Shown here: one piece after another, positions 15,922-42,816 of the stretch
Layout of the letters: each line of letters begins with the position of its first letter
Numbering within the stretch: position 1 is the stretch's first letter
NCBI GenBank assembly: GCA_001920415.1
Contig: MNJR01000095.1
Location: 1 to 42,816, forward strand
Length of the DNA: 42,816 nt
From: Acidobacteria bacterium 13_1_20CM_3_53_8
GTDB taxonomy: Bacteria > Acidobacteriota > Blastocatellia > Pyrinomonadales > Pyrinomonadaceae
Reading direction: 5' to 3'
Position numbers and translations under genes: made by a program
The notes under the pieces: generated by a model
Seen by the model: only the letters and a program-made list of their open reading frames with translations
Database searches by the model: none
What the model was told of the DNA's origin: nothing

Positions 15922-16066
15922 AAAGAAGGCAAAAGTAAAAAGGTAAAAGGCAAAGGGAAGGCAAAAGGTAAAAGTAAAAAGGCAAAAGTGAGGGGAAGCC
16001 AATCTTTTAATAGAATTGATTTCAGCCTTCCTTTTGCCTTTTACCTTTTTACTTTTGCCTTTTCTT
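15921..16066. repeat. AAAAGGC/AAAAGGT heptamer inverted repeat, copy 1
   Basis: Left arm units run from 15921 to about 15990 (GGCAAAAGTAAAAAGGTAAA style). The right arm, about 16027-16066, is the complement. The centre (GGGAAGCC, AATCTTTT, TTTCAGCC) is nearly the same as in the copy at 19042-19147. It sits exactly between two convergent genes, its left end touching one stop codon and its right end the other. Confidence 0.9.
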
Positions 16067-19055: not shown

Positions 19056-19147
19056 AAAGGTAAAAGGCAAAAGTTAGGGAAGCCAATCTTTTTATTAAAA
19101 GTGGTTTCAGCCTTCCTTTTGCCTTTTACCTTTTTACTTTTGACTTT
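19042..19147. repeat. AAAAGGC/AAAAGGT heptamer inverted repeat, copy 2
   Basis: Perfect 32-bp arms at 19042-19073 and 19116-19147 surround a 42-bp centre nearly equal to that of the copy at 15921-16066. The left arm overlaps the end of galE; the right arm ends 4 bp before the stop of convergent sppA. It could end transcription from both directions. Confidence 0.95.
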
Positions 19148-19150
19148 CCT

Positions 19151-20953
19151 TTATCTGATTCTCAATTCAAACGGCATGAGCGCCATCATATCGCCACGCT
19201 TCATGCGGTCTAGCATGGCGGCGTAGCGCAGTGAGCGCTGCACGTCCTCTGGCAATGCGGCGATGGCCGCGCGCTGCTGTTGCACATGGACGTTAGCGCC
19301 GTTCTCTTCTTCGTCATCATTGCCGAACAATCTTTCAAAGAAGGTGCGCGGGTAAGGGAACACTACGCGATGCACGCTCTTTTGCGCGGGAATGCCTGCG
19401 AGTTGTTTGGCTATCTCTACGGCGCGGTCGAGTCCGCCGAATTCGTCAACGAGACCGTTCGACTGTCCCTGCGCGCCAGTCCACACGCGACCCTGACCGA
19501 CTGAGTCAATGTATTCTGGATTTTTGTTCCGACCTTTAGCGACTTTCGGCACAAAGTCTTCGTAGTAAGTACGCCTGATTAAATCCTCGAACCGCGCTCG
19601 CTCGTCCGTAGAGAAGGGTTCTGTCTCGCGGAACATCCCTGCGTTCTTGCCGCGCATTACGTACTCGTTAGAGATTCCGAGCCAATCGTAGAAACCTTTC
19701 ATCACGGGTTTGCCCGCGAAGATGCCTATAGAGCCTGTGATGGTCGAAGGCTCTGCGACGATGCGGCTGGCGTTGCAGGAGATGTAGTAACCGCCGGAAG
19801 CCGCAAGGTCGCTCATTGAAACCACTACGGGCTTCTTCTGACGCGCTTCTTCCACAGCGTGCCAGATTAAATCTGATGCGTAACTTGATCCGCCTGGGCT
19901 GTCAACTCTGAGCACTATGGCTTTAACCGTGCGGTCGTCGCGCGCGTCGTTCAGCGCTTTTACAACTGTATCCGAGCCTGCGGTCTGCTCGCCTAACAAG
20001 CCATCGTTAGAACGACCAGAATCAATCTCGCCCGATGCGTAGATGATCGCTATGCGCTCGCCCGTGTTCAGTCCCAAGGATTCCGGCGAGACCTCTCGAT
20101 AGTCCGAGCCTTTGACCAGATGAAGATGATCGGACGGTTTGTAGCCCAGTTGTTGTTTCAACTCATCTTCGATTTCGCTGCGATACTTTGCGCCGTCCAT
20201 CAACCCTGTGTCCTGCGCTTGCCGTGCATTGAACGGCGCGCTGTCAATCAGAGAGCGCACCTCGTCCGGCGATTTATGGCGCGTCTCGGCCACTGCGCTG
20301 ACGTAGCGACCGAAGTAGTCATCCAGGATAGAATTGATTACTTCGCGCTGCGCGTCCGACATATTCTTTCTGGTAAACATATCAGGCGCGTTCTTGTATT
20401 TGCCTATCTGGAAAACGTCCGCCTGTATGCCAAGCTTATCGAGCGAGCCACGAAAGAACATAGCCTCCGCCGCAAGACCGTTGATGAAGAGATCGCCCAC
20501 TGGCGGAATGTAGATTCGGTCGCATGCGGTCGCAATGTAATACTCACGATTGAAACCCAACTCCATGTATGCATAGATGGGTTTGCCTGAACTTCTGAAA
20601 TCAGCAATCGCGTCGCGTATCTCGTCCGCTTTAGCCCAGCCTCCGCCCGGCATATCAATGTCCAGCAGCACCGCGCGTATGCGCCTGTCAACTTTCGCTT
20701 TCTTTAGCTGCACGAGCAGGCCAGTGAGCGACTGATCATCGCTGCCGAAAATTTTCCTCACAGGGTTTTCCGGCACGTAGTCTGGAAGCGAACCCGAAAC
20801 GCGCAGCACCAGCACGCTGTTGTCAGCAATCGCAGGCTCGCTGTGGCGAAACGCTGCGAACAGCATAGCGATTCCCAAAGCAGCAAAAAAGAAGATGACC
20901 AGGACTATTCCCGTAATGATAAGAACGATTTTTCTTGTACGCGACATCGCCAT
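19151..20953 (-). CDS. sppA: Signal peptide peptidase SppA, long (67K) type
   Basis: 600 residues with one N-terminal membrane helix (IVLIITGIVLVIFFFAALGI) and two tandem S49 protease-like domains, as in the long SppA class. The general-base lysine is likely in IGKYKNAPD (first domain), and the nucleophile Ser in SDLAASGGYY (second domain), followed by TGSIG. It cleaves leftover signal peptides in the cytoplasmic membrane. GGAAA stands 6 nt before ATG 20953. A second Met two codons later is also possible. Its end touches the palindrome shared with galE, and a REP-like palindrome lies upstream. Confidence 0.95.
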   Translation of the reverse strand: MAMSRTRKIVLIITGIVLVIFFFAALGIAMLFAAFRHSEPAIADNSVLVLRVSGSLPDYVPENPVRKIFGSDDQSLTGLLVQLKKAKVDRRIRAVLLDIDMPGGGWAKADEIRDAIADFRSSGKPIYAYMELGFNREYYIATACDRIYIPPVGDLFINGLAAEAMFFRGSLDKLGIQADVFQIGKYKNAPDMFTRKNMSDAQREVINSILDDYFGRYVSAVAETRHKSPDEVRSLIDSAPFNARQAQDTGLMDGAKYRSEIEDELKQQLGYKPSDHLHLVKGSDYREVSPESLGLNTGERIAIIYASGEIDSGRSNDGLLGEQTAGSDTVVKALNDARDDRTVKAIVLRVDSPGGSSYASDLIWHAVEEARQKKPVVVSMSDLAASGGYYISCNASRIVAEPSTITGSIGIFAGKPVMKGFYDWLGISNEYVMRGKNAGMFRETEPFSTDERARFEDLIRRTYYEDFVPKVAKGRNKNPEYIDSVGQGRVWTGAQGQSNGLVDEFGGLDRAVEIAKQLAGIPAQKSVHRVVFPYPRTFFERLFGNDDEEENGANVHVQQQRAAIAALPEDVQRSLRYAAMLDRMKRGDMMALMPFELRIR

Positions 20954-25844: not shown

Positions 25845-28800
25845 ATGAAAGAGGAAGAAGACAGAAACGAAAGCGCTGAATCGCAGCCTCTTGAAAGAGA
25901 GTTCCGCGAGCGGCTGCGCTCTGTCAAAAGCTTGACGGAGCGGCGCTCTGTCTCAGGGTTGGCGCGTGAGCTTTCGCGCTTGCCTTCGGACACAGCGCTC
26001 GCAGCATTGGAGACGAGCGCGGTTCTGGCGGGCGTCTCTCTTCGCGCGAGCATAGAGTTTTTGCGCGCTGTGCCTGCCGCTTCGCTCGTGCTCCGTTCGG
26101 AAGAGTTGAGCGCTTGGGGCGAGATGGGTCGCCGTCTGGCTATGGGCGACGCCGAATCCGCGATTGCTTTCTTCGCATCGGGCGTTGAAGAGATGGCGAT
26201 GATTCCAGAAACGGCGCGGCCTCTGGTCTTTCAAATCTGCGCGCGCCAGATGATTCTCTCAAGCTCCGTAGCGCTAGACACCTTTCGACGCGCGCCGCAA
26301 ATTGCAAACGTAGTCAAAGATGCAGAACTTCTCTTCTCCATTCTTGAAATCGCAGCAGAGATTTCGCGCCGCTCCGCTAAGCACAGCGCAGATTTCTTGC
26401 GCACGACGGAAAAGGTCTCTGCTTGTCTTCATGATTTCGATAATAACGAACAGGAGGTTGCGCGGCGCGCTGTCGCGCTCGCGTCCAGTTTCGCATTGCG
26501 CGCCGGAGGCATAGCCGCAGACGCCTGGTCTGCTATGCCAACTGCTTTAGAAAACTTGGACGCGCCGAGAGCGCTAATGCTTCTAAACGGCGCGGGCGAA
26601 TTTCTTGAACGAGGCGGTGGGGCCGCGCTCTCAGTATTGGTAGCAGGGGGCGAGGTCATGCGCGTCGCGCCGGAAATTTTCGAGGATTGGACTAAGTTGC
26701 TTTGGACTATAACGGAGCATGGCAACGCTGCGCTGGTGGCAACGGTGCGCGCAACGCCTCCGTTCTTTCAGACAATCATGAAAGACGTAGGGCGCGCTCG
26801 CGCCATCGAACTCGCGCGGCGCGTGCTGGAAGTGACGGGCGAGGTTGCTCTTTTGGATGGCGAAGCGGCGCTCGCATGCTTTCGTTCAAGCCCGAAGGCG
26901 CTGCGCACAGTCTCGCTAGAACAGTTCGAGCAATGGGCGCGTGAAGGTCTCGCTCTCTCTTCATCAAACGCTCGTGCGCGTAGAAGCTACTATGCGCTGG
27001 AAACCAGACGAAGCAAAGAGGCGCTTCAGACTGGAAGCGAAGGACTCGCCCTGGAATCTGTTCAGAACACTCTGCGCCTCTATGTAGAAGCTCTAACGGG
27101 GCACGAGGTTGATGTTGCGCCGCTCGCAAGTCTGCCGGATGAAGCGCGCATTGGCGACGGTCGCACCATACATCTACCGGCGGTTGTTTCAGAGTTTAAT
27201 GACGAAGAGCTTGATTTTCGTCTCTACAAAGTTCTGGCAGCGCACGCCGCAGGGCAGATTGAGTTCGGCACGCACGAGCGCGACACGGCGGATTTGCAGG
27301 CCGCATACGCGAGCATTCACGACGTTTACTCTGCCGAAAATCTGGACGCGCGCGACGCATTCGCCCTAAATGGTTACATCAACGAGATGGAGAAAGGCGA
27401 GCGTGCGCTCTCGCCTGAAGAAGAGGCGCGAAGAGCTAGAGTTGCAAGCTTGCCGCCGGATTCCGATTACCGCGCTGTGCTCGCGCTCTTTCCCTACAGA
27501 GGTTTGGCCCAGAGAATTTTCGGGACGCTTGAGAACGGGCGCATTGATCGCCGATTGCGCCGCGCTTATCGCGGACTCGCGCGCGATCTGGATTTGACGC
27601 GCGAACACTTGAGGCGCAGCCGACCGCCAATAACTCGCCTGCCCGTCACGCTCGTTCCGTTTGAATTGCTTTTCCAGATAACCTTGTGCGGAGGCGCGCT
27701 AGATGACGCGCGCAATTTCTACAGCCAGATTGTTTCAGAACTCGAATCAATCGTCGCGGATTATCTGACTCCGGCTTCGGCTTCCGTCGCAGACACACTG
27801 ATGGCAACGAGCCGCGTCTATTCGCTCTTTCAATCAATCACCGCAGACGATGCGCAGAAGCAATCTGAGGATGCTAGCCAAGGGGACGAGGGAAGAGGCG
27901 AGAGCGCTGCTGCGCGTGAAGAGATAGAGTCGGAAAAATCTGCTGACCAGAACAGGCAGCGGCGAGACGCGCGCGAGCTTTTCAACGCATGGGCCAGCAG
28001 CGACCCTTCGGGCGAGCTTGAGCAACTTGATGGCGCAGAGCGATGGATTCAGCAAGAGATGCCCGAACAGACGCTCGAACAGGGTGAAGTCGCGTTCAAT
28101 TACGACGAGTGGGACAGGGAATTGTCTGACCACCGAACGGGCTGGTGCCGCGTAGTAGAAAAGCGTGTGCGACACGGCGACCGCTCATTCGTAGCGGGCA
28201 CGCGAGAACGTTATCGCGGCATCATCTCTTCGATTCGTCATCAATTTCAGATGATGAAGCCGGAAGATTTGCAGCGCACTACGAACGAACTGGACGGCGA
28301 CGATTACGATTTGAACGCAGTGATTGATTACGTCATAGACCGCCGCGCCGACGGACATCAATCCGAAAGACTCTACACTAAGCGTCTGCGCCGACGGCGC
28401 GACGTTGCAGTCTCGTTTCTGCTGGATCAATCTTCATCAACCGCCCGAACGATTGGCCGTCATCCTTTGCAGCCCTACACGCATCCGGGTCGTCGCATCA
28501 TAGAGATTGAAAAGGAAGGACTGGTTCTGATGAGCGAAGCGCTGGAGGCTGTGGGTGATGTCTATTCAATCAACGGTTTCACCTCTGAAGGACGCCGCAA
28601 TGTGAAGTTTTACGTCGTCAAAGATTTTGACGAGAAATATTCCGAGACGGTCGAGCGGCGCATAGGTGGAATAACTTATCAGAACAACACAAGATTAGGC
28701 GCAGCCATACGTCACGCCGCCGCGCGCCTCTCTCGTCAAGATGCGCGCACGAAACTTCTGATAGTTCTTTCAGACGGTCGGCCCTACGACCACGACTACG

Positions 28801-29006
28801 GCGACGCACGCTACGCACGCGAGGACACGCGAGAAGCTTTAAGACAGGTGAAGAATCAAGGCATCACGCCCTTCTGCATCACGATTGACCGCGAATCCGA
28901 AACAGAACTGCGCGATCTTTACGGCGAGGTGGGCTACACGATAATTGACGATGTGCTCAGTTTGCCTGAAAGAATGCCGGGGATTTATAGACGGCTGACG
29001 ACTTGA
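25845..29006 (+). CDS. Large VWA-domain protein, NorD/CbbO-like, partner of the AAA ATPase
   Basis: 1053 residues. Residues about 30-450 are alpha-helical repeat-like sequence rich in Ala, Arg and Glu ([18 protein letters not shown] opening). A charged linker lies around 660-730, and the C-terminal VWA domain (about 850-1053) has a full MIDAS: DQSSS near 860, Thr in NNTRLGAA, and Asp in LSDGRPYD. NorD/CbbO proteins bind a MoxR-type ATPase and a client metalloenzyme; the client here is unknown. ATG 25845 follows AGAGGG closely. The last 93 bp are copied at 30076-30168 and in part at 30909-30964, after two toxin-antitoxin modules. Confidence 0.88.
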
Positions 29007-29044
29007 GAGCACGTATTTCTGTGTCAAGCCAGAGCTATTTGAGC

Positions 29045-30075: not shown

Positions 30076-30168
30076 GATCTTTACGGCGAAATGGGCTACA
30101 CGATAATTGACGATGTTCTCAGTTTGCCCGAAAGAATGCCGGGGATTTATAGACGGCTTACGACGTAA
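30076..30168 (+). pseudogene. Duplicate of the VWA gene 3' end (copy B, 93 bp)
   Basis: From GATCTTTACGG to the stop codon, this aligns without gaps to 28914-29006 with 7 differences in 93 bp. It encodes the same last 30 residues except for one change (GEV to GEM); the other differences are synonymous or alter only the stop codon (TGA to TAA). It has no start codon and is an isolated gene end between two toxin-antitoxin modules. Confidence 0.95.
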
Positions 30169-30278
30169 GATAGATCACATTGAGCAACTCTCATAAGGCT
30201 ATGGTAATCTTGTTGGCGGTTTGACTATTGCTCTTAACGCATTTCGTAAAGTTGCAGCGAAAACCGAGAGGGAAGGTC

Positions 30279-30506: not shown

Positions 30507-30850
30507 AACGCGGCGAAATCTACTTGGCCGATTTGTCACCACGCTCAGGCTCTGAACAGCAAGGGCGTCGTCCGGTAATCATCGTCTCGCATGATGGATT
30601 CAATCAAGCTGCTGGCTGGCGTTCGATTATTGTAGTGCCGATCTCAACCTCTGCGTCGCAAGCTAGACGTGGGCTAACTGCTGTAAAAATATTGCAAGGC
30701 GAAGGCGGATTAACACAAACCAGTATTGCTCTCTGCCATCAGGTGACGACTCTTGACCGAGCCAAACTTACCAAGCAACTTGGAGAACTGCCGCCACCAT
30801 TGCTCCGACAGGTCGAAGAAGGTCTCAAGGCTGCGCTGGACATCGAATAA
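30503..30850 (+). CDS. MazF/PemK-family mRNA interferase toxin
   Basis: 115 residues from GTG 30503. The family pattern is complete: MKRGEIYLADLSP, RRPVIIVSHDGFN, IIVVPIST and SIALCHQVTTLDRAKL. MazF toxins cut RNA at short motifs. Together with the antitoxin gene 30279-30506 it forms a second module of the island and is followed by copy C of the VWA gene end. Confidence 0.92.
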   Translation: MKRGEIYLADLSPRSGSEQQGRRPVIIVSHDGFNQAAGWRSIIVVPISTSASQARRGLTAVKILQGEGGLTQTSIALCHQVTTLDRAKLTKQLGELPPPLLRQVEEGLKAALDIE

Positions 30851-30908
30851 GCGCAGTTCCCTATGTGTAACAAACCTCCCAGCTTTTAGAATTGAAATCG
30901 CAGAATTT

Positions 30909-30964
30909 GGCTACACGATAATTGATGATGTTCTCAGTTTGCCCGAAAGAATGTCGGGATTTCA
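30909..30964 (+). pseudogene. Partial, decayed duplicate of the VWA gene 3' end (copy C)
   Basis: About 55 bp match the VWA gene from GGCTACACGATAATTGA onward, covering the codons for [15 protein letters not shown], then lose one G and drift. Copy C shares with copy B two bases that differ from the real gene (GATGTT and GCCCGAA), so B and C are closer to each other. Confidence 0.88.
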
Positions 30965-31049
30965 AATAAAAGTATTTTCAGAACATTCCCAGGGACAGAG
31001 CTTGTTGGAATTTTTGTGCTGCATCGCACCATATTGGTGTTACTTTCCG

Positions 31050-31079
31050 TTGACATCTGTCAGCCAACTTCTTTAGTAT
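31050..31079 (+). promoter_or_regulatory. Conserved promoter of the exported-protein family, copy 1
   Basis: TTGACA (31050-31055), 18-bp spacer, TAGTAT (31074-31079). The block including CTTCTTTAGTATGC recurs at 34118 and 39178 in front of paralogous genes, which supports a real promoter. Confidence 0.75.
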
Positions 31080-31085
31080 GCGTAG

Positions 31086-31407
31086 GCCATAATTTTTTTC
31101 GTGGGGTTGCGCTGGCACCGGGTCGGCAGCCTTTCAGCCCAGATTCATCCGCACATTAGATAGTCTTACACAGTTTTTCCGGTAGGCCACTTTTGTAGTA
31201 TTCGGGCGCTTACCGCTTACGAATCAGGGTTGGATAATTTAAGCGAAGTCAACTCCCCGATTAGCTATAGGCGGGAGTAGAGCAACACATCTGCACTCCC
31301 TTTTCAATCAAGACAAGGCGTTCTCGCCGACGAGATCAAGCGGTCAGCGTATGTATGGGACTAATCCTACATAGTCAAATAATAATTGGAACAACAGTGG
31401 AGGAATT
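31086..31407 (+). promoter_or_regulatory. Long conserved leader of the exported-protein gene, copy 1
   Basis: About 322 nt without a gene. It shares ordered blocks with the two other leaders: GGTCGGCAG and TTCAGCCCAG, then AGTCTTAC, TTTTCCGGTA, GCTTACCGC, ACGAATCAGGG, CTCCCCGATTAGCT and GATCAAGCGG. It ends with GGAGG and the start codon. Probably a structured mRNA leader. The class is not recognised. Confidence 0.6.
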
Positions 31408-33948
31408 ATGAAAAGAGTGGGTTTCTTTTTGGCGGCGGCGTTTTGCATGGCCGTAGTTTGTTCAAGCGTGTCTGCGCAAACCACCTATACATGGAATCAG
31501 ACAGGTACGGCGGCATGGACAACTTCAACGAACTGGACGCCAACGCGAACCACGCCTGCTGTTGATGATGTTCTGGTTTTCAATAACGGCGCGACGACTA
31601 TTGTAACAGCCGTGCCGACTCAGACCATCGGACAGTTATCGGTTTCGGGCAACACCAACGTGACACTGCAAACCGGTGCCGCTGGCAACACTTTAACCAT
31701 TGCGGGCGGCACAGGAACGGATCTATCGGTTGCCGCAGGTTCGCAGCTTAATGTCAATACAGCTAATGCGCTTATCATTAACGTTGCGACCGGCGCGACG
31801 GGAAGCATAAGCGGGTCAATGACTCTCTCTGCTGGCGCTCACAGGTTAACGGCTGTTGATGCCAGTGGAATTACATTCCAGAGCGGAGCCACATTCACGG
31901 AAGGCACATCGTTTTCAGGAAACCCCTTTGGCACAACCAATCTCAACTCCATAGTCTTTGCCAGTGGCTCTACATTTATATTCATCGCGGGAAGCAATCC
32001 ATTTGGGGCGGCGCAGCCAAGCTCTGTAGTTGTATTCCAAACGGGCAGTCTATTCAGCCAAACTGGCACTGGCACACCTGCATTCTCGGGTCGTACCTAC
32101 GCGAATTTTGAGTTGAATAATGCTTCTGCCAACGTTACTGTTACCGGCGGCAGTGCAGTCTCGATAGACAACCTGACGATCACGGCTGGAACTCTCAACT
32201 TCAACATGACCGCAACTCCCGGACATTCAATCAAAGGAAACATCACGGTTGCTTCTGGTCAGACTCTTAATTTCGCTCCCGCGACGGCAGGAACGGTCAA
32301 CTTAAATGGATCGTCCGCTCAGACGATTAGTGGCGCGGGAACACTTACGTTTTCGACCCTGTCAACCATTAACGTAAATAATGCGAATGGCATCACCTTA
32401 CAAAAGGACATAACGATTAATGGCGGGCTTACGCTCACCGCAGGTAACATAACTACCGGCGCTAATACTCTGTCAATTAGCTCAACCGGAATTGTCAGCC
32501 GAACCAGCGGTCACATCATTGGCAATCTGAAAAAGAATTTTCCGGCGGCGGCAACCAAGACTTTTGAAGTTGGAACGGCCAATGGATATTCTCCGGTCAC
32601 CGTTAACGCCACTGCCGGAACGTTCCCGGCGGATTTTACGGTCAGCGCCACTCAAGGGCCGCACCCGGCAGTCAACGCCGCCACATCCATTCAGAGATAC
32701 TGGACGCTTACAAACACAACCATCAGTTCAGCGGATTTAACTTTCCAATATTTAGCTGGCGATGTGATGGGCACGGAAGCCAATTACAGAGTGATACGCA
32801 TCTCTGGCGGCACACCCGTCTCCTTCCCTGCAAGCATCATTAACACAGGCGCTCACACGGCAAGCCTTGCGGGCGTGACAGGTTTCTCAGACTGGACTGT
32901 GGGCGAGAACGTTGCTCCGACAGCCGCTCCGGCCAACTTGAGCGGACGAATCATTACGAGCGATGGCGCTCCTTTGGGCGGCGTAGTGCTGGCTCTTAAC
33001 GGAGGCAGCCACGTGCGAATGACCATCACGGATGCATCAGGTTATTACTCGTTCGGCAATGTTATGACCGATCAGTTCTACACGCTCGCGCCCATGCGTG
33101 TTAACTACCAATTCAGCCCCGGTGCGGCATCCTTCAGTATGGTGGGCAATAGGGCAGATGCGAACTTCACTGCAACTGCTTCGGCAATGGTAGCCAATCC
33201 TCTGGACACGCCTGAATTCTTCGTTCGCCAGCAATACCTTGATTTCTTAGGACGTGAACCGGATCAAGGCGGATTGGATTTCTGGACAGCTAAATTAAGA
33301 GCGTGCGGAGTGGACTCGGAGTGCATGCGACAGGAGCGCATAAACGTCTCCGCCGCATTCTTCCAGAGTGATGAGTTCCAACAGACTGGCTCTTTTGTCT
33401 ATCGTCTATACAAAGCTGGATTGGGCAGACAGTTGAGCTATCAGGAATTCACAGCAGACCGCGCGCAAGTTCTGGACGGGAATAATCTGGACGCGCGCAA
33501 AGCTGCTTTCGCAGATGCCTTTGTGCAGCGTGCGGAGTTCACACAGAAGTATCAGGGCGCAACAACAGCCGAAGGTTTTGCTGACGCGCTGATACGAACC
33601 ATGCTCCAGTCGAGCGGTGTAGATTTGTCGGCGCAAAGGAACGCTCTCGTTAGCAGGTACAATTCAGGCGCGACGCTAGACCAATCCCGCGCGCTCGCGC
33701 TGAGAGAAGCGATTGAATCTGCAAGTTTCCGTCAGGCGGAGTTCAATCGTGCGTTCGTGCTGACAGAGTATTTCGGCTACCTGCACCGTAATGTTGATGG
33801 GGGAGGATATGACTTCTGGCTGGATGTATTGAACAACCGTGTACCCGGTAATTACAGAAGCATGGTATGCGCTTTCATTACTTCTAGTGAGTATCAGAGA
33901 TTGTTCTCTTCCGTCGTTACTCATTCTAACGGTGAATGCTCGCAGTAA
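31408..33948 (+). CDS. Exported beta-rich repeat protein with DUF4214 C-terminus (846 aa)
   Basis: GGAGG stands before ATG 31408. Residues 1-23 are a classical signal peptide ending SVSAQ. Residues 24-365 are Thr/Ser/Gly/Asn-rich beta sequence of passenger or beta-helix type (TWNQTGTAAWTTSTNW opening). Residues about 368-500 form a module shared closely with the next gene (FEVGTANGYSPVTVNATAG to FSDWTVGE). A carboxypeptidase-regulatory-like fold follows (about 510-590), then a DUF4214 region (595-846) with FVRQQYLDFLGREPDQGG and a second copy YLHRNVDGGGYDFWLD. Likely a surface or secreted protein; the ligand is unknown. Confidence 0.9.
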   Translation: MKRVGFFLAAAFCMAVVCSSVSAQTTYTWNQTGTAAWTTSTNWTPTRTTPAVDDVLVFNNGATTIVTAVPTQTIGQLSVSGNTNVTLQTGAAGNTLTIAGGTGTDLSVAAGSQLNVNTANALIINVATGATGSISGSMTLSAGAHRLTAVDASGITFQSGATFTEGTSFSGNPFGTTNLNSIVFASGSTFIFIAGSNPFGAAQPSSVVVFQTGSLFSQTGTGTPAFSGRTYANFELNNASANVTVTGGSAVSIDNLTITAGTLNFNMTATPGHSIKGNITVASGQTLNFAPATAGTVNLNGSSAQTISGAGTLTFSTLSTINVNNANGITLQKDITINGGLTLTAGNITTGANTLSISSTGIVSRTSGHIIGNLKKNFPAAATKTFEVGTANGYSPVTVNATAGTFPADFTVSATQGPHPAVNAATSIQRYWTLTNTTISSADLTFQYLAGDVMGTEANYRVIRISGGTPVSFPASIINTGAHTASLAGVTGFSDWTVGENVAPTAAPANLSGRIITSDGAPLGGVVLALNGGSHVRMTITDASGYYSFGNVMTDQFYTLAPMRVNYQFSPGAASFSMVGNRADANFTATASAMVANPLDTPEFFVRQQYLDFLGREPDQGGLDFWTAKLRACGVDSECMRQERINVSAAFFQSDEFQQTGSFVYRLYKAGLGRQLSYQEFTADRAQVLDGNNLDARKAAFADAFVQRAEFTQKYQGATTAEGFADALIRTMLQSSGVDLSAQRNALVSRYNSGATLDQSRALALREAIESASFRQAEFNRAFVLTEYFGYLHRNVDGGGYDFWLDVLNNRVPGNYRSMVCAFITSSEYQRLFSSVVTHSNGECSQ

Positions 33949-34034
33949 AGTAATTTGGAAGATGTATGAACGAAGAGGGGGCGTAGTGTTCAAAAATCTA
34001 CGCCCCCTCTTCGCCGGTTACGACAACTGTCACA
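33812..34034 (+). repeat. 223-bp direct repeat, copy 1 (gene end plus hairpin)
   Basis: These 223 bp are identical base for base to 38870-39092. They cover the last 46 codons of the exported-protein gene, its stop, the hairpin and 20 bp beyond. Upstream the two genes differ clearly, so the identity is recent and local. Confidence 0.95.
33971..34013 (+). terminator. 16-bp perfect hairpin after the first exported-protein gene
   Basis: CGAAGAGGGGGCGTAG and CTACGCCCCCTCTTCG pair perfectly over an 11-nt loop. No T-run follows, but the position 22 bp after the stop and its exact repetition at 39029 support a 3'-end role. Confidence 0.75.
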
Positions 34035-34117
34035 AGACAATTGATAGTCTTAGCCCTGACAGGATAATTACCGTTGACCTTATAAGCTGCATCCCGCCAG
34101 ATTTTCCTCCACCTTTG

Positions 34118-34146
34118 TTGACATCTACCTGCGACTTCTTTAGTAT
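34118..34146 (+). promoter_or_regulatory. Conserved promoter of the exported-protein family, copy 2
   Basis: TTGACA (34118-34123), 17-bp spacer, TAGTAT (34141-34146), in the same sequence context as copies 1 and 3. Confidence 0.75.
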
Positions 34147-34152
34147 GCACAC

Positions 34153-34599
34153 GCCTATTTGAGTTGCGACCTGCCCAGAGATCGGCAGTCCTTCAGTTCA
34201 GTTCAGTTTCACCTACAGGCTAACATTACGGTTTTCAATCGTCTGCGACTTGCTTGCAAATACCCGGCTTGAATCTGCTGTTGATGAACACGGGAGACAG
34301 ATTGTTAGTCACCGGTCGCACTCGAATGTAAACCGTAATAGTTTTACGCGAGAGCTTTCCGGTAAGTCACTCAGCTAGTATCCCGGTGCCTTATCACGTA
34401 CGAATCCGGGGGTAATCAGCCTTGGGGGAAATCACCTCCCCGACTTAGCTGTCAAGTAGTAGCCGAAGTTGCAGGTTTTCTCGCCTAAAGATCTAGCGGC
34501 CAAAAGGGGTGAGTCTGTTTTTTCAGCATCGGTTAATGAGGGGGAATTCTTTCACCCTTAGATTATTAAATGCAGTCCGAACATTGATGGAGACTTTTC
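34153..34599 (+). promoter_or_regulatory. Long conserved leader of the exported-protein gene, copy 2, with an extra insert
   Basis: About 447 nt without a gene. It has the shared blocks GATCGGCAGTC, AATAGTTTTACGCGAGAGCT, TTTCCGGTAAG, TACGAATCC, GGGTAATCA, CCTCCCCGA, TTAGCTGTC and GATCTAGCGGC. An insert of about 115 nt absent from the other leaders is bounded by perfect 10-bp inverted repeats, ATTACGGTTT (34225-34234) and AAACCGTAAT (34330-34339). GGAG lies 7 nt before ATG 34600. Confidence 0.6.
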
Positions 34600-37500
34600 A
34601 TGAAAAACTCAAGATACAACTATTCGACCACTAAGCTCGGCGCGCTGATCTGCTTTGTCGCCGCAATTCTAATAATAGTCGGCGTTGCCACTGGGCCTAT
34701 CACTGCAACGCTCGCTCAGAATGATAATAATAGTCTGCAATCGTCCGCCGAACGTGTTTCGGCCAAGCTAGCCCGAACGGCGGCTGAGGAATCGAGCGTC
34801 ATCACAAATGAAGCCCCGTCAGTAAGCCCGGAGCTTGTGACCGCGACAAGTTATCCGTTCACAAGCGCCAGCGGCGTCGCGCTCGAAGATATGTCGAGCG
34901 GGACGACGCAGTTGGTGGCCGCCAGTCTGGACGATACCGCTTCGGTTGTTACCAACATCGGCTTTGATTTCTGGTATGACGGAGTTCGCGCTACTCAGTT
35001 TTCCGCCAATGCCAATGGCTTAATGCGCTTGGGTAGCACCGTTATTGATACGGCGTTTACCAACAGTCTTGCCTCGACGACGGATGCGCCGAAGATCGCT
35101 CCTTTCTGGGACGACCTGTGCACGGGCACGAGCGGGAAGGTTCATTATAAAGTTATCGGCAGTGCGCCAAACCGCAAGCTCGTCGTTGAATGGAAGAATA
35201 TGCAGATAACTAGAAACGCCGGTTGTGGCGGTGTGGGCACGGGAACTTTTCAGGCGTGGTTATTTGAATCAACCGGCGTTATCGAACTTGTATATGGGTC
35301 GGGAATGACAGGAAGTAATGACGGCGGATACTCTGTTGGTTTACAGTCCGGCGCATCAACGAACTTTGCCGCCGTGACGACTTCCGGCCCAACCGTTTCT
35401 TATGTGGCTGCCAACGACACACAGACGAACGCCATCACATCCGGCACAGCCTATATCTTCACGCCGAACACGCCAATAGCGCCGACAGGGTTTTCCGCTA
35501 CCGGTGTGGGAGTGACCTCTATGACGCTCAACTGGGCTGACAATGCGATCAATGAAGTCGGCTATGCAATCTATCAATCAACCGATAACGTAAACTTCAC
35601 GTTCGTTACGCAAACGGCAGCGAACGCAACCTCGCAGGCCGTCAGCAATCTTTTTCCGAACACAACCTATTTCTTCAAAATCTACGCCGTCACAGAAGGC
35701 GCGCTCAGTTCTGCCTTAAGCGGAAGTCAGGTGACAAACGCGGCTGGCGTTGTTATGTCAACGGCGGTGGGCGGCAACTGGAGTTCTACAGCAACATGGG
35801 CAGGCGGCGTCGTTCCGACGGCGACAGATGACGTGACTATCGTGGATGGCGCAACTGTGACGATTGACACGGCAGCAGTCGCCTTAGATGTCACAGTCGG
35901 TCAAGGCACATCCGGCGTCCTGCAATTCGACGCCACGACTGTGCGCACGCTTACTGTAGGGCTGAACGTGACGATCAATAGTGGTGGAACTCTGCAATCT
36001 GCCACGACCGGCACCGTGACAACACACACGCTTTCCGTCGGCGGTAATCTGACCAACAACGGCACGCTTAATCTCAGCACCAATGCAAACACGGCTGCCG
36101 CAGGACTCACCTTTACGAACACGACCAACAATACGTTCGGCGGCACAGGTGCGACCACCAACATCAGGACGCTGACCATCAACAAGGGCACGTCCAACGC
36201 TAATATCCTTGAATTGAATCCGACAAACTTTACAGTGCAGGGCGTGGCTACGGATGTCGCGGGCTTCCTGACATTGACCAACGGAACACTGAAGGTGTCC
36301 GGCACATTCGCCGTAACCAACAGAGTCTTTACTACCGCAGCCTATAGCATCGGTGCGACTACTGGCTTCTGGCTGAACAATCCAAACTTCACCGTCGCAG
36401 GCCAAGCGGGTTCGCCAGCTACTAGCGGCCTGCTCAGAATATCTCAGGGGACGTTCAATATTGGCACAGGCACCGGCAACTCGATGGGCTTCAACGTGGG
36501 CAGTACGATCACGGTTGAAGGCGGTGCTGTTAATGCGACAGGCAGATTCGGTGTGGCATCTGCGGCCAATACCATAACTTACACGCAATCTGGTGGAACG
36601 ATCACGGTCTGCACTATCGGTAATGGCTCAGCCTCTCTCGGCAGCTTCGATCTGGGCACTTCAGCCAGTTCAAACATCAGTGTTAGCGGCGGCATGGTTG
36701 TTGTCCAGCTTGCCAATACGAACGCGACTCCGATTGATTACCGTTACGACTCCGGCAGTACGCTCGGTAACCTTACCGGCGGCACAGTGCAATTCGGTAA
36801 TGCCGCTTCGGGTGCGGCGAAGACTTTCAGCGCGCGCGGGGTCGCTTTCAACTATGTAGTCAATACCACCAGCGCAGGGCATACGGTGAACTTGAGCACT
36901 ACGCTCGTCAACTGGAATCACGTGGCATTCGGTAATATTAATATTGGCACCGGCGGTACATTTGGTTGCGGTAACAGCATTTTCTTCATACAAGGAAACG
37001 TCGTTAACGATGGCACATTGACAGCGACGGGTGCGAGCGTTCGGTTGTATAACGGAGGGAGTAGCGCACAGACCTACTCAGGCAACGGCACGTTTACAGC
37101 TCCGGTTACCAGCTTTGAACTGGATAACGCGAATGGCCTAACGATTACGACGACCAACCAGATTCCTACGGCTCGTGTTATCTTGTTCACCGGCAGCTTC
37201 ACTGGCGCTAACAAGATCACGCTCGGCAACGGCGGCGCGACCACAGGCACGGTTCTGATCGGTAATGGGACCACGCCCACGGCGGCTGGCTCTTTCGACG
37301 TGCCTCTGACCTTCAATCTCGGCACAGGTGGTGAAGTTGTTTCTTACTTAAGAACGACAGCGAGCAGAGCTACAGGCGGTGAGATCAATCCAGCGCGCTC
37401 GCTCACCACGTTCACATATGACGACAACGACGCCACGCACACACTAACTATCTCTGGCGGCGATCTTACCGTCACGGGCACGTCAACGTTCACTAACGGT

Positions 37501-39006
37501 CGTATCATCACCGGCGCGAACAATTTCATCATCGGCAGCGCAGGCACGGTCGCGCGCACCAACGGTTACATTGACGGCAACCTGCGAAAGACCTACACGG
37601 CAATAGGCAGCAAGACCTACGAAGTGGGAACTGCCAACGGCTATTCTCCCGTCACAGTCAACGCTACTGCCGGAACTTTTAATGCAGATTTCACAGTCAG
37701 CGCCACACAAGGGCCGCAGCCCAACGTCAATGCGGCTACGTCAATCCAAAGATACTGGACGCTGACGAACACTACAGTCACTCAAGCAGACCTGACGTTC
37801 CAGTACTTAGCCGCAGACGTAATGGGCAATGAGAATAACTACAAAGTCATACGCGTCTCAGGCGGCACGCCAGTCTCTTTCCCGGCCAGCACCGTGAATA
37901 CAGGTACTCATACGGCCTCTCTGGCGGGCGTGAACAGTTTCTCCGACTGGACTGTTGGAGAGGTAGCTACGCCGACTGCTGCGCCTGCGACAATCAGAGG
38001 ACGAATCACAGATAGCGGCGGCGCTGCGCTTGGCGGCGTAGTCGTAATGCTGGATGGCGGCAATGGCGAGTACACTGCTATCACAGACAATCTGGGTCGC
38101 TATACCTTCTCGAACGTTATGACCGACCATTTCTACACGCTCACTCCGATGCGTGCTAACTACAACTTCAACCCTGCGTCGCAATCCTTCAGTCTTCTGG
38201 GCAACAGGGCTGACGCAGATTTCACTGCCTTCGGGTCATCAGTGGCGATTGCCAACCCACTGGACACGCCAGAGTTCTTCGTTCGGCAAAACTACCTTGA
38301 TTTCTTAGGACGTGAGCCGGATCAGGGAGGACTGGCCTTCTGGACAGCGAAGATAAAGGCATGCGGCAACGACTTTGTGTGCATACACAATGAGAGACTC
38401 AATGTCTCTGCGGCATTCTTCCAGAGTGATGAGTTCCAGCAGACTGGTTCCTACATCTACCGTCTCTACAAGGCTGGATTGGGCAGACAGTTGAGCTATC
38501 AGGAGTTCACTTCGGATCACCAAAGGGTCGTGGATGGCGAGAACCTCGAAGCAAGACGAGCTTCGTTCGCACAGGAGTTCGTCTCTCGTGCAGAGTTCGC
38601 GCAGAAATACAGCAATGCGACCACAGCGGAGAGTTTCGTGGAATCTCTCATTCAGACGATTCAGCAATCAGATGGAGTTGATCTATCCGGGCGGCGTGAT
38701 GCTCTCGTAGCAAGGTATCAGGCGGGAGCGAGCATGAACGAAGGACGCGCTTTAGTGTTGAGAGATGCGATTGAGGCCGCGAGTTTCCGTCAGACGGAAT
38801 ACAACCGCTCGTTCGTGCTAATGCAATACTTCGGCTACCTACACAGGGACGCGGACGAAGGAGGATTCAACTTCTGGCTGGATGTATTGAACAACCGTGT
38901 ACCCGGTAATTACAGAAGCATGGTATGCGCTTTCATTACTTCTAGTGAGTATCAGAGATTGTTCTCTTCCGTCGTTACTCATTCTAACGGTGAATGCTCG
39001 CAGTAA
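34600..39006 (+). CDS. Giant exported protein: FN3, beta-repeat region, DUF4214 (1468 aa)
   Basis: The signal peptide or N-terminal anchor lies near residues 14-40 (ALICFVAAILIIVGVA). A jelly-roll-like domain (about 80-285: NIGFDFWYDGVRATQFSANA, IAPFWDDLCTG) is followed by a fibronectin type III domain (about 290-384, ending NTTYFFKIYAVTEG). A long Gly/Thr/Asn-rich beta region opens GNWSSTATWAGGVVPTATDD. The module shared with the preceding gene spans about 988-1122, then a carboxypeptidase-regulatory-like fold (1130-1214) and DUF4214 (1217-1468). The last 46 codons are identical to the preceding gene. GGAG precedes ATG 34600. Likely surface-exposed; the role is unknown. Confidence 0.92.
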   Translation: MKNSRYNYSTTKLGALICFVAAILIIVGVATGPITATLAQNDNNSLQSSAERVSAKLARTAAEESSVITNEAPSVSPELVTATSYPFTSASGVALEDMSSGTTQLVAASLDDTASVVTNIGFDFWYDGVRATQFSANANGLMRLGSTVIDTAFTNSLASTTDAPKIAPFWDDLCTGTSGKVHYKVIGSAPNRKLVVEWKNMQITRNAGCGGVGTGTFQAWLFESTGVIELVYGSGMTGSNDGGYSVGLQSGASTNFAAVTTSGPTVSYVAANDTQTNAITSGTAYIFTPNTPIAPTGFSATGVGVTSMTLNWADNAINEVGYAIYQSTDNVNFTFVTQTAANATSQAVSNLFPNTTYFFKIYAVTEGALSSALSGSQVTNAAGVVMSTAVGGNWSSTATWAGGVVPTATDDVTIVDGATVTIDTAAVALDVTVGQGTSGVLQFDATTVRTLTVGLNVTINSGGTLQSATTGTVTTHTLSVGGNLTNNGTLNLSTNANTAAAGLTFTNTTNNTFGGTGATTNIRTLTINKGTSNANILELNPTNFTVQGVATDVAGFLTLTNGTLKVSGTFAVTNRVFTTAAYSIGATTGFWLNNPNFTVAGQAGSPATSGLLRISQGTFNIGTGTGNSMGFNVGSTITVEGGAVNATGRFGVASAANTITYTQSGGTITVCTIGNGSASLGSFDLGTSASSNISVSGGMVVVQLANTNATPIDYRYDSGSTLGNLTGGTVQFGNAASGAAKTFSARGVAFNYVVNTTSAGHTVNLSTTLVNWNHVAFGNINIGTGGTFGCGNSIFFIQGNVVNDGTLTATGASVRLYNGGSSAQTYSGNGTFTAPVTSFELDNANGLTITTTNQIPTARVILFTGSFTGANKITLGNGGATTGTVLIGNGTTPTAAGSFDVPLTFNLGTGGEVVSYLRTTASRATGGEINPARSLTTFTYDDNDATHTLTISGGDLTVTGTSTFTNGRIITGANNFIIGSAGTVARTNGYIDGNLRKTYTAIGSKTYEVGTANGYSPVTVNATAGTFNADFTVSATQGPQPNVNAATSIQRYWTLTNTTVTQADLTFQYLAADVMGNENNYKVIRVSGGTPVSFPASTVNTGTHTASLAGVNSFSDWTVGEVATPTAAPATIRGRITDSGGAALGGVVVMLDGGNGEYTAITDNLGRYTFSNVMTDHFYTLTPMRANYNFNPASQSFSLLGNRADADFTAFGSSVAIANPLDTPEFFVRQNYLDFLGREPDQGGLAFWTAKIKACGNDFVCIHNERLNVSAAFFQSDEFQQTGSYIYRLYKAGLGRQLSYQEFTSDHQRVVDGENLEARRASFAQEFVSRAEFAQKYSNATTAESFVESLIQTIQQSDGVDLSGRRDALVARYQAGASMNEGRALVLRDAIEAASFRQTEYNRSFVLMQYFGYLHRDADEGGFNFWLDVLNNRVPGNYRSMVCAFITSSEYQRLFSSVVTHSNGECSQ

Positions 39007-39092
39007 AGTAATTTGGAAGATGTATGAACGAAGAGGGGGCGTAGTGTTCAAAAATCTACGCCCCCTCTTCGCCGGTTACGACAACTGTCACA
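38870..39092 (+). repeat. 223-bp direct repeat, copy 2
   Basis: Identical to 33812-34034 (constant offset 5058 bp). It includes the coding end, stop, hairpin and 20 bp of flank. After it the two downstream sequences diverge but remain related up to the next promoter. Confidence 0.95.
39029..39071 (+). terminator. 16-bp perfect hairpin after the second exported-protein gene
   Basis: Same hairpin as 33971-34013, within the 223-bp repeat. Confidence 0.75.
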
Positions 39093-39177
39093 CAATAATT
39101 GACAGTCTTTCCTTTGCCGGGATAAATACCGTCGGACTCCTCAAGCCGCATCTTGTCCGCTTTTCTCATACTTTTCA

Positions 39178-39207
39178 TTGACACCTGTCGGCCAATTTCT
39201 TTAGTAT
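39178..39207 (+). promoter_or_regulatory. Conserved promoter of the exported-protein family, copy 3
   Basis: TTGACA (39178-39183), 18-bp spacer, TAGTAT (39202-39207). The spacer CCTGTCGGCCAATTTCTT is close to that of copy 1. Confidence 0.75.
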
Positions 39208-39213
39208 GCGCAG

Positions 39214-39560
39214 CAATATTGAATTGCGATCCATCGAGGTCGGCAGTCATTCAGCCCAGGTTCAGCCACAAATCAATAGTTTTACGCGAGAGCTTTCCAG
39301 TAAGCCACTCTGTAACATCCTGGTGCTTACCACACGCGAATCCAAGGGTAATCAATCTTGGGGAAAATCATCTCCCCGATTAGCTGTCGAGCAGTGGCAT
39401 AGAAGCAAGAGCCTGATTTCAACCGAAAGGTTGATGCAGGTTTATTGCTGAAAGATCAAGCGGCAAAAAGCAGCTAGTGTGTTTCGGTGCTGGTTGGTGA
39501 GAGGAAACCTTTCATACTCGAATCAGCAATTTCCATACAAGAAAATTGACGGAGATCATG
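39214..39560 (+). promoter_or_regulatory. Long conserved leader of the exported-protein gene, copy 3
   Basis: About 347 nt without a gene. The blocks GGTCGGCAGTC, TTCAGCCCAGGTTCA, AATAGTTTTACGCGAGAGCT, GCTTACC, CGCGAATCC, AAGGGTAATCA, CTCCCCGATTAGCTGTC and AGATCAAGCGGC match copies 1 and 2 in order. CCAAGG can pair with either CCTGG upstream or CTTGG downstream. GGGGAAAATCATCTCCCC forms a small hairpin. Confidence 0.6.
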
Positions 39561-42500
39561 ATGAAAAATCCCTCGAATAACTTCTTAACCACCAAGCTCA
39601 ACGCGCGCCTTCTCGCCGCATTGATAACTATTCTGACGACGCTGACGCTGGCGAGCGTGACGGCCTTCATGCAGGGACGGGAGACTCCCCCAGCTAAGCC
39701 TGCGGTCGAGGAGCCTGCTGTGCAGCAATGGCAAAGGCGTGCGGAGCCGACGCAGATTAGGACGCCGCTTGGCCCCGGCGTCGCGCTAACTTACGCAGAC
39801 CCGGACGAGGGCGGCCAGCCTGCGGACGCATCAGCGAGTCAACCGAGCGCCGACAATCAAAACTTAGTCAACAGTCAAAACTTATTTGTAGAACCCGGGC
39901 GGCAGAATGCAACAGCCAACATCACTCCGCCCTCTGTTACTCCGGCTGCGGCTATTACGTGCAACGGCGCGGGCGGGAACTGGAGTTCAGCGGCTACATG
40001 GACAGGCGGAGTGCCGACTGCGGCAGACAGTGTGACTATCACAAACGGTTGCACGGTCACCATTGACACAGCCGCTGCCGCATTGAGCGTCAATGTTCAG
40101 AGCGGCGGGATTTTGCAGTTCGAAAGTGTGACTGCGCGAACGTTGACAACAACGGCATCGGTCACGATTGTTTCGGGCGGCACATTCCAATCCGCCACTA
40201 CGGGAACAGTCACGACTCACGTTCTCTCGGTCGGAACGGATTTGACTAACAACGGCACGCTCAACTTTAGTACGAACGGCAACACTGCCGGAGCGGACAT
40301 CACTTTCACGGGCGCAGTTAATAATACTTTTGGCGGCACTGGCGCAACCACTAACATCAGAACATTGACTATCAACAAGGGCACGTCTTTCACACCCACT
40401 CTGGAAATCACAACATCGAACCTGACTGTGCAAGGTACTACAACCGATGGCGCGCCGATGGCGTTTCTAACGCTGACAAACGGAACGTTAAAGGTGTCTG
40501 GCACATTTACTATGACGGGTCGCGTGTTTACTACCGCAGCTTATACCATCCCGGCCACTGGCGGATTTTGGCTGAACAATCCGAACTTTACAGTCGCAGG
40601 CCAGAACGGCTCGCCTACTAACAACGGCCTGCTCAGAGTCTCAAACGGCATATTTAATATGGGCACTGTCGGCACCAATGTGATGGGTGCTGGCACAGGT
40701 GCAGCTTTCACCATAGAGGGCGGCACGATGAACGTTGCCGGACGCCTCACTTCGGCGAACGCCGTCACCTACACGCAGTCGGCTGGAGCGGTCAACATCT
40801 GCACGGCGGGCGGCTGCGCGACCACGCCCTCGTTCGGTTTCACTTCCACGCTGCCGACCAACGTTATGAACATGTCGGGCGGGGCAATCAACATGGTGAA
40901 CAGCAACACGCTCACCACCGCAGACTACAACCAGCTAGGCACTATCAACTTTACGGGCGGCACTGTACAGTTCGGCACCGCAGCCACCGCCACTAACTTT
41001 AACTTCCGTATACAGGGCAACGCGCCGAACGTTGTGATTGACAACACTACCAACAACAAATCGTTGTTCTTGAGCAGTACCGCATACGTATACGGCAATT
41101 TCACCATCTCAACCGGCACGACTCTGCACCTGAACAACCTCATACTAAACATGCTCGGCAGCACCTTCACCAACAACGGCACGGTGACGGATGGCATCAC
41201 ATCGGGCTTCACGACGAGCCGCTTGCAGTTCTTTGGCGCTGTCGCGCAAACCTACACTGGCACAGGAACGGCGGGCACAGCAGCCGATCCTATCTTCGGC
41301 TTCTCTGTCATCAATCGCGGCGCGGGCTTGACGATTGACCCTGCGGCTAACCCGTTCAACGCCGCGCGCCTTTTACTGTTCTCCGGCTCGCTCATCAACA
41401 CCAACAAGGTCAACCTGAGTCAGGTCGGCACGAACGTGATGGTCATACAGCGCGGTGGCGTGGCATTTCTTCCGCCGGGCAGCGCCGACGTTGCGCCTAG
41501 CTTCAGCGGCGGCACATCTGCGTTGATTCTGGTCTACTCCCAAGGAACCACAGCCATCACGACCGGCGTGGAAATTCCTGCCAGCCGCACCGTCGAAAGC
41601 CTGCAAGAGTTCAACACTAACGGCGTCACGCTGGCTGGCGGCCCGCTGACGGTCACAGGGACTGGTGGGGCTGCCCCGGATACCGTAGGCCTGTTATTGG
41701 GCGGCACGGCTGCTGGTGCAGCCGGAGGGCCATTGAATACCAGCGCGGCCAACCTGATCACCGTCGCATCCACCGCCGTCGCTGCTTTGGCGGGCGGTTC
41801 TGAGAACTCTTACGTGAACGGGCCTATAGCTCGAACGCTGCCAGCAAGTTTGGTGTCGGGCAGCACCTATCTCTTCCCCATAGGTAAGTCCATGTACAAG
41901 GCGTTCGAGTTGGTCAACCCGACCACTAATGCCAGTGGCACAGTCACAGTGCAGGCCGAAGTGTTCGACGCAGACTCTGGCGGCACGAACGGCGCAGGTC
42001 TGGATGCCATCAACCACAATCGTTATTGGAATGTTCAGATCACTTCGGGCGCTGCGAACTTCACGAACAGCAGCGCGCGCGTGACCGAATTGAACTCCAC
42101 GAACAATAGACTCGGCCAGTCGGCAACGCAGACCAGCGCTTACGCTTCAGTCGGCGGCACGCTCACGTCATCTACAGTCCAATCGTCGGTCACCCTCACT
42201 TCGCTGGGATTTTTCGCCGTCGGTCGCCTGGCGACAGCGCCGACGTTTCCCGGCGGGACTTACACCGTTGGGACTGGCGGCAACTATACGACTCTGACAG
42301 CCGCAATGGCGGACTTGAGCGGCAAGCTAATCACAGGCCCCATCGTCTATAGCCTGCTTGCGACATACAGTTCGGCGGGCGAGACATTCCCGATTATTGT
42401 TCCGCGCAATGGCGGTTCAAACGCCACGAATACGATTACAATTAAACCCGCGTCCGGCGTGACCGCATCCATCAGCGGCTCGTCAGCAAGCAGCATCATC

Positions 42501-42816
42501 CAAATCAATGATTCCTACGTGACCATAGACGGCTCGAACACGAGTGGCGGCACGACGCGTGACCTGACAATCCAGAACACGAGCACTGCGACCACCACGG
42601 CGGCCATTTTGGTCTCAAGTCAGAGCTTGAACGCTGGCGCGACCAACGTCACGCTCAAGAACATGAACGTACACGCGGGACTCGGCAGCACTACAACCAA
42701 CATCTATGGCATCTTCGCTGGCGGGGCGTCTCCGGGCGCTAACGGTGAAAACAACGACTTCCTCATCATCCAGAACAACGCCATAGACACAGCTTATGAA
42801 GGCATAGCCGTCCGCG
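39561..42816 (+). CDS. Giant exported beta-repeat protein, third paralogue (C-terminus cut by window edge)
   Basis: The frame is open from ATG 39561 to the right edge (1085 full codons); an adjacent ATG at 39558 is less well spaced from GGAG. A signal-like helix (LLAALITILTTLTLASVTAF) is followed by a Pro/Gln-rich linker. The beta-repeat region opens GNWSSAATWTGGVPTAADSV, very like the protein at 34600, and shares FGGTGATTNIRTLTINKGTS with it. Around residues 905-1085 a right-handed beta-helix-like segment appears (GGNYTTLTAAMADLSG, TNVTLKNMNVHAG). The C-terminus, where DUF4214 would be expected, is not visible. Same promoter and leader as its two paralogues. Confidence 0.88.
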   Translation, partial: MKNPSNNFLTTKLNARLLAALITILTTLTLASVTAFMQGRETPPAKPAVEEPAVQQWQRRAEPTQIRTPLGPGVALTYADPDEGGQPADASASQPSADNQNLVNSQNLFVEPGRQNATANITPPSVTPAAAITCNGAGGNWSSAATWTGGVPTAADSVTITNGCTVTIDTAAAALSVNVQSGGILQFESVTARTLTTTASVTIVSGGTFQSATTGTVTTHVLSVGTDLTNNGTLNFSTNGNTAGADITFTGAVNNTFGGTGATTNIRTLTINKGTSFTPTLEITTSNLTVQGTTTDGAPMAFLTLTNGTLKVSGTFTMTGRVFTTAAYTIPATGGFWLNNPNFTVAGQNGSPTNNGLLRVSNGIFNMGTVGTNVMGAGTGAAFTIEGGTMNVAGRLTSANAVTYTQSAGAVNICTAGGCATTPSFGFTSTLPTNVMNMSGGAINMVNSNTLTTADYNQLGTINFTGGTVQFGTAATATNFNFRIQGNAPNVVIDNTTNNKSLFLSSTAYVYGNFTISTGTTLHLNNLILNMLGSTFTNNGTVTDGITSGFTTSRLQFFGAVAQTYTGTGTAGTAADPIFGFSVINRGAGLTIDPAANPFNAARLLLFSGSLINTNKVNLSQVGTNVMVIQRGGVAFLPPGSADVAPSFSGGTSALILVYSQGTTAITTGVEIPASRTVESLQEFNTNGVTLAGGPLTVTGTGGAAPDTVGLLLGGTAAGAAGGPLNTSAANLITVASTAVAALAGGSENSYVNGPIARTLPASLVSGSTYLFPIGKSMYKAFELVNPTTNASGTVTVQAEVFDADSGGTNGAGLDAINHNRYWNVQITSGAANFTNSSARVTELNSTNNRLGQSATQTSAYASVGGTLTSSTVQSSVTLTSLGFFAVGRLATAPTFPGGTYTVGTGGNYTTLTAAMADLSGKLITGPIVYSLLATYSSAGETFPIIVPRNGGSNATNTITIKPASGVTASISGSSASSIIQINDSYVTIDGSNTSGGTTRDLTIQNTSTATTTAAILVSSQSLNAGATNVTLKNMNVHAGLGSTTTNIYGIFAGGASPGANGENNDFLIIQNNAIDTAYEGIAVR

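Follow-up and report, generated by a model that had tools for sequence, protein, structure and literature searches.

A tandem array of three duplicate genes, all in the same orientation, raises the question of how the giant exported proteins that they encode (846, 1468 and at least 1673 amino acids) are switched on. The array lies in a 42,816-nucleotide (nt) stretch of contig MNJR01000095.1 from Acidobacteria bacterium 13_1_20CM_3_53_8 (assembly GCA_001920415.1), which we call the window; promoters, leaders and genes are numbered 1 to 3 in array order. Each gene is preceded by the same promoter and by a long leader, which the original prediction took to be a folded RNA with the layout of a switch. 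Our analysis points, on balance, to a lineage-specific cis-regulatory promoter and leader that was copied in the tandem array and kept by selection together with recombination. We favour this reading because the genome holds three copies only, each upstream of a paralog, and because the leader core is conserved above the four-fold sites of the genes. Such a shared leader would offer a handle on how giant exported proteins are switched on.

Promoters and leaders of the array

The TTGACA/TAGTAT promoter announced for all three genes was found in front of each of them (Table 1), and a search of both strands of the window for TTGACA, 16–19 nt and TA..AT matches these three promoters only. If transcription starts about 7 nt past the −10 element, as we infer, the leaders measure ~322, ~447 and ~347 nt in copies 1, 2 and 3. 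The predicted range of 320–450 nt is reproduced by these lengths, but the excess in copy 2 is a mobile element, and without it the range becomes ~320–350 nt. With the leader of copy 3 as query, a basic local alignment search tool (BLAST) search of the 6.1-Mb genome returned copy 1 at an expectation value (E) of 2e-16 and copy 2 at 2e-27; homology of the leaders is therefore far above chance.

The six leader blocks that had been described are real and ordered, but two of them, AGTTTTACGCGAGAGCT and GGGTAATCA, are intact in copies 2 and 3 only and degenerate in copy 1. The block GGTCGGCAG is kept at 9/9, 8/9 and 9/9 positions in copies 1, 2 and 3, and GATCAAGCGGC at 10/11, 10/11 and 11/11; CGAATCC is shortened to CGAATC in copy 1, and CTCCCCGATTAGCTGTC matches at 15/17 positions in copy 1, carries one additional base in copy 2 and is exact in copy 3. 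A conserved leader peptide was considered and rejected: the core carries indels of 1 and 2 nt, which speak against a small open reading frame shared by all three leaders.

The mobile element sits between the 5' block and the core of leader copy 2 and shows both the terminal inverted repeats and the dispersed copies of a miniature inverted-repeat transposable element (MITE). A 96% identical copy lies at C92:79075-79186, contig C110 ends in a partial copy of 99% identity, and the terminal repeats have 25 matches in the genome at E <= 1, the window itself counted. Any target-site duplication would span at most 2–3 nt, the boundary being ambiguous. Minus the insert, leader copy 2 is ~330 nt long, comparable to the other two. 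Constant blocks with spacers of changing length had been read as the mark of a folded RNA; the length change is largely the mobile element plus one indel of 29 alignment columns.

Conservation of the leader compared with drift

Between the paralogs, four-fold sites have come close to saturation, with identities of 113/245 between genes 1 and 2 (95/227 without the last bin, which is 18/18), 127/344 between genes 2 and 3 and 62/183 between genes 1 and 3. Upstream of the genes, the promoters of copies 2 and 3 agree at 25/31 positions, the stretches that link promoter and core at 18/28 and 27/38, and the cores at 98/115; just past the core the identity drops to 16/30 with 29 gap columns, followed by the surroundings of GATCAAGCGGC with 19/26 and the final, gene-proximal part with 53/82, while the spacer upstream of the promoter has 54/83 with 2 gap columns. 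Between copies 1 and 3 the promoter-to-core part matches at 76/98 positions, the core at 75/110 and the part beyond the core at 60/136, so the similarity of copy 1 fades past the core. From these region identities, promoter and core are the parts kept best. Under p-values that treat sites as independent, the core of copies 2 and 3 exceeds the four-fold sites (p 4e-20), the upstream spacer (p 0.001) and the gene-proximal part (p 0.001). Leader conservation exceeds drift, and the array shows how paralogs can retain a shared upstream region even as their genes approach saturation.

Within the core, copies 2 and 3 differ by 16 transitions and 1 transversion, compared with 28 and 23 past the core (p 0.003). 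We do not read this excess as wobble pairing, because 11 of the 17 differences lie outside the predicted helices described below; the other 6 lie inside them, where 4 leave the pair intact in both copies and 2 disrupt it in one. Lower divergence by itself also raises the transition excess.

Distribution in the genome and in relatives

The leader was sought with BLAST, with a promoter-block pattern and with two models, R1 for the leader core and R2 for the sequence of the promoter block. The genome-wide model searches used strict filters, so that 9–31 candidates at most were scored per genome; the outside search sets overlap one another. Within the source genome, BLAST returned the three leader copies only, the next match being one of 17 nt at E 0.59, and R1 and R2 up to E 10 likewise gave just the three copies, each upstream of one paralog.

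A leader common to DUF4214 genes, which the original prediction had proposed to collect, was rejected: 38 stretches that surround other DUF4214 genes of this genome yielded no such leader, and relatives yielded none that convinces. With the contig end these stretches make up 39 loci and 200,677 nt, some of them cut by contig ends, and one DUF4214 match on contig C11 falls outside them. In these stretches the top profile matches had E values of 1.4 and 1.6, and every BLAST match below E 0.1 was to the insert of copy 2. The sequences upstream of 45 other DUF4214 places, for which some start codons are uncertain, script-made guesses, contain seven pairs that share something at E <= 1e-3. Three queries were drawn from these pairs (L039-L046 and L046-L048 are outside them): two are palindromic repeats, and the third, which looks coding, is present at two further loci. 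Palindromic repeats also occur in the window at 15925-16062 and 19030-19152; a related repeat precedes a DUF4214 gene on a different contig. The source genome has 100 DUF4214 matches listed, and an equal search was positive in 1/14 control genomes. The literature searched yielded nothing on the control of DUF4214 proteins.

Outside the source genome, BLAST found the leader in 0/59 genomes at E <= 0.01 and the promoter-block pattern occurred in 0/96, two sets in which no genus mate is listed. A leader as far removed as copy 1 (71%) was detected by BLAST in its own genome; relatives that similar should therefore have shown in the 59 genomes. R1 gave one match at E <= 0.5 among 118 other genomes of the family (G026, E 0.17), which was rejected as gap-rich and pair-breaking, and none at E <= 0.05 among 161 other genomes of the class or 395 others drawn from the phylum. 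R2 matched 35/161 other class genomes at E <= 0.5 (best E 0.009), matches that we take as chance; most of the nine regions looked at (L156-L164) fall within long reading frames or on their opposite strand, L161 being an exception. At L161, 1501-1534 on the minus strand, TTGACACCTACC...CTTAGTAT forms a promoter look-alike a short distance 5' of a gene for an exported protein in a different genome of the class; it may be chance, from which it is not distinguishable. A pattern scan of a collection of genome contigs gave 15 matches, about the chance number estimated, none titled Acidobacteria and none with a core by R1.

Protein relatives were a further place to look. No leader was found in the stretches around them (G028, G009, G067, G002 and further loci), where the best outside profile match had E 2.9. 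The G009 gene, 69% identical to part of protein 1, was rejected as a carrier, with nothing alike upstream by eye and no profile match better than E 1. Tandem arrangement of such genes is not confined to the present array: ~12 kb of one strand of contig C18 in G028 (locus L145) holds four relatives of the C-terminal region of protein 1; a profile search did not find the present leader at this locus. Riboswitches are recognized by their presence ahead of related genes in several species; no convincing case of this was observed in the sets searched. Within what was searched, then, the leader is convincingly found in one genome and not convincingly elsewhere.

Folding of the leader RNA

The window holds no match to an Rfam 15 family at gathering score, which agrees with the earlier statement that no known riboswitch class is recognizable; ten lax matches in 30850-39650 lie far under the cut-offs and look like chance. 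For the core, RNAalifold gives a structure of 27 pairs, derived from the same three sequences, in which 91.3% of cells pair; the shuffle mean is 89.6, with 59/500 shuffles as high, and slid versions reach 34–45%. The covariation test that had been called for gave, for three sequences, a two-sided change in 1/27 pairs, which 156/500 shuffles equal and a version slid by −3 surpasses with 3.

Energies were compared with shuffles in single copies and in consensus. The single-sequence z-scores of copies 1, 2 and 3 are 0.75, 0.18 and −1.14 for the core and −0.52, 0.40 and −3.52 past it, the last being reached by 1/200 shuffles. Column shuffles of the whole leader give a consensus z of −2.5 (2/300), and the eleven consensus windows have z 0.80, −0.37, −1.78, −0.88, −0.76, −0.83, 0.13, 0.11, −3.58, −5.26 and −5.49, those over the core lying between −0.4 and −1.8. 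We attribute the low values of the last three windows (−3.6 to −5.5) to a predicted hairpin before the start codon; copy by copy this hairpin has p 0.25, 0.07 and 0.11 (combined 0.05), and its preferred register is not the same in copies 2 and 3. Apart from a site over promoter 1, a strict terminator scan of the leaders returned nothing. Visual inspection shows a strong hairpin with TTTATT behind it in copy 3, a weaker hairpin ahead of TTTT in copy 1 and none that convinces in copy 2.

The proposed switch, in which one strand pairs with either an upstream or a downstream partner, is not established by these comparisons. Its complementary letters exist in copy 2 (CCCGG/CCGGG/CCTTGG) and in copy 3 (CCTGG/CCAAGG/CTTGG, where the upstream pairing needs a bulge), but the helices differ between copies: the two pairings have probabilities of 0.96 and 0.29 in copy 2 and of 0.08 and 0.06 in copy 3, and helix P2 has 0.00, 0.88 and 0.03 in copies 2, 3 and 1. 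No counterpart was seen in copy 1, for which none had been claimed. Three segments able to pair two ways are common to copies 2 and 3 (shuffle mean 0.44; 8/300 shuffles reach 3 and 91/300 reach 1), and the predicted toggle is not among them. Copies 2, 3 and 1 contain 8, 3 and 6 such segments each, compared with letter-shuffle means of 3.2, 1.5 and 1.9. We regard this excess as a weak sign of pairing potential, not as a demonstrated switch.

Explanations for the shared leader

According to the reading that we favour, the unit would consist of a sigma-70-type promoter with roughly 180–190 nt of leader (5' block and core) and a small block nearer the gene, and would have been duplicated along with the genes. 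Purifying selection would hold its letters, aided by recombination between neighbouring copies. The leader would act after initiation, through binding of a protein or small RNA, through message stability or through attenuation before the start codon, and the three genes would respond together; post-transcriptional action is what we infer from conservation. Several points weigh against this reading. Transcription of the leader is itself deduced from sequence, only three leader sequences exist, and they have no common fold (whole-leader single-sequence z −0.28, −0.14 with the insert and −2.76 for copies 1, 2 and 3). The spacer 5' of promoters 2 and 3 also exceeds the four-fold sites (p 4e-6), and a 223-nt tract is identical between array copies, which indicates recent recombination, so that copies 2 and 3 could owe much of their similarity to recombination alone. 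It is a possible, though less than likely, alternative that the leader has no special function: tandem duplication and gene conversion would keep the intergenic regions young, with the promoter alone constrained. The identical tract, the likeness of a spacer that lies outside any leader and the restriction of the leader to the array all suit this account, but the core stands above both the spacer and the gene-proximal part, and copy 1 retains promoter and core though its gene is near four-fold saturation. The contributions of selection and recombination cannot be divided cleanly.

Two other explanations place the function in the DNA or in an RNA fold. A double-stranded regulatory region of promoter and downstream transcription factor sites is unlikely; the best-kept letters do include the promoter and short blocks at variable spacing, but conservation extends ~180–190 nt past the promoter with a near-continuous core, which is long for operator sites. 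A folded cis-regulatory RNA acting as a riboswitch or attenuator, its branched core followed by a start-proximal hairpin, seems a shade less probable still. Its putative core helices would be a closing stem ATAG/CTGT, GGTAAG/CTTACC, CCAAGG/CTTGG and GGGG/CCCC. The paired cells that slid versions lack, the consensus energy of the whole leader and its last windows, the commonness of two-way segments and the good folding of copy 3 past the core speak for it; against these stand a structure derived from the very sequences that it is meant to explain, shuffles that match its paired cells and its single two-sided change, unremarkable windows over the core, helices and start-proximal registers that differ between copies, the low probabilities of the two toggle pairings in copy 3 and a strict terminator scan with nothing in the leaders but a site over promoter 1. 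Least probable, in our estimate, is its boldest form, a new and narrowly distributed leader RNA class whose branched core would gate transcription or translation and whose copy 2 would be active despite the insert.

Genes and neighbouring modules

Within the window, DUF4214 matches fall in genes 1 and 2; gene 3 runs without a stop up to the contig end at 44580 and has its DUF4214 match in the contig past the window. The N-termini of all three proteins are signal-peptide-like, and each start codon (31408, 34600, 39561) is preceded by a Shine–Dalgarno-like GGAG.

Upstream of the array, the 3' end (28914-29008) of a VWA-domain gene at 25845-29006 recurs at 30076-30170 and, in part, at 30891-30985. 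The first copy (93%) lies past a DUF433-DUF433-DUF5615 module and the partial one (64%) past a DUF2281-PemK toxin–antitoxin pair, so that both modules are bracketed by copies of the end of the VWA gene, as if inserted there.

Table 1. Positions of the promoters, leader elements, genes and repeats of the array in the window.
Feature	Positions	Strand	Remarks
Promoter copy 1	31050..31079	+	TTGACA-18-TAGTAT
Promoter copy 2	34118..34146	+	TTGACA-17-TAGTAT
Promoter copy 3	39178..39207	+	TTGACA-18-TAGTAT
5' block, leader copy 1	31119..31142	+	GGTCGGCAG...TTCAG..CAG
5' block, leader copy 2	34178..34201	+	
5' block, leader copy 3	39236..39259	+	
Leader core copy 1	31160..31270	+	75/110 identity with copy 3
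Leader core copy 2	34338..34455	+	98/115 identity with copy 3; first two letters may be the insert's
Leader core copy 3	39276..39390	+	
3' block copy 1	31334..31344	+	GATCAAGCGGT
3' block copy 2	34490..34500	+	GATCTAGCGGC
3' block copy 3	39454..39464	+	GATCAAGCGGC
MITE-like insert in leader copy 2	34225..34339	.	115 bp; 25-nt inverted ends, 84% complementary
Gene 1	31408..33948	+	846-amino-acid DUF4214 protein; export inferred from N-terminus
Gene 2	34600..39006	+	1468-amino-acid exported protein, fn3 and DUF4214; G8 just under cut-off
Gene 3	39561..42816, continues beyond window	+	exported protein; G8 just under cut-off
Terminator-like hairpin 3' of gene 1	33971..34013	.	16-bp perfect arms; no T run behind
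Identical hairpin 3' of gene 2	39029..39071	.	matches gene 1 hairpin
Gene 1 end and hairpin	33812..34034	+	223 nt identical to 38870-39092
Gene 2 end and hairpin	38870..39092	+	223 nt identical to 33812-34034

Comparison with known systems

Like the riboswitches and cis-regulatory RNAs of Rfam 15, the array has a long conserved leader that separates the promoter from the start codon; unlike these families, the present leader has no match at gathering score, shows no covariation among its three sequences and comes from one genome. Acido-1 and Acido-Lenti-1 are listed as RNA candidates for Acidobacteria in the candidate listing of Weinberg et al. (2010; PMC2864571), where they are given as not cis-regulatory and as submitted to Rfam (RF01686 and RF01687); the window differs from them in having no Rfam match at that score. 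The insert of copy 2 resembles MITEs in its inverted ends and dispersed relatives and, as a difference, is no part of the leader proper; the case shows that a mobile element is able to mimic a variable RNA spacer.

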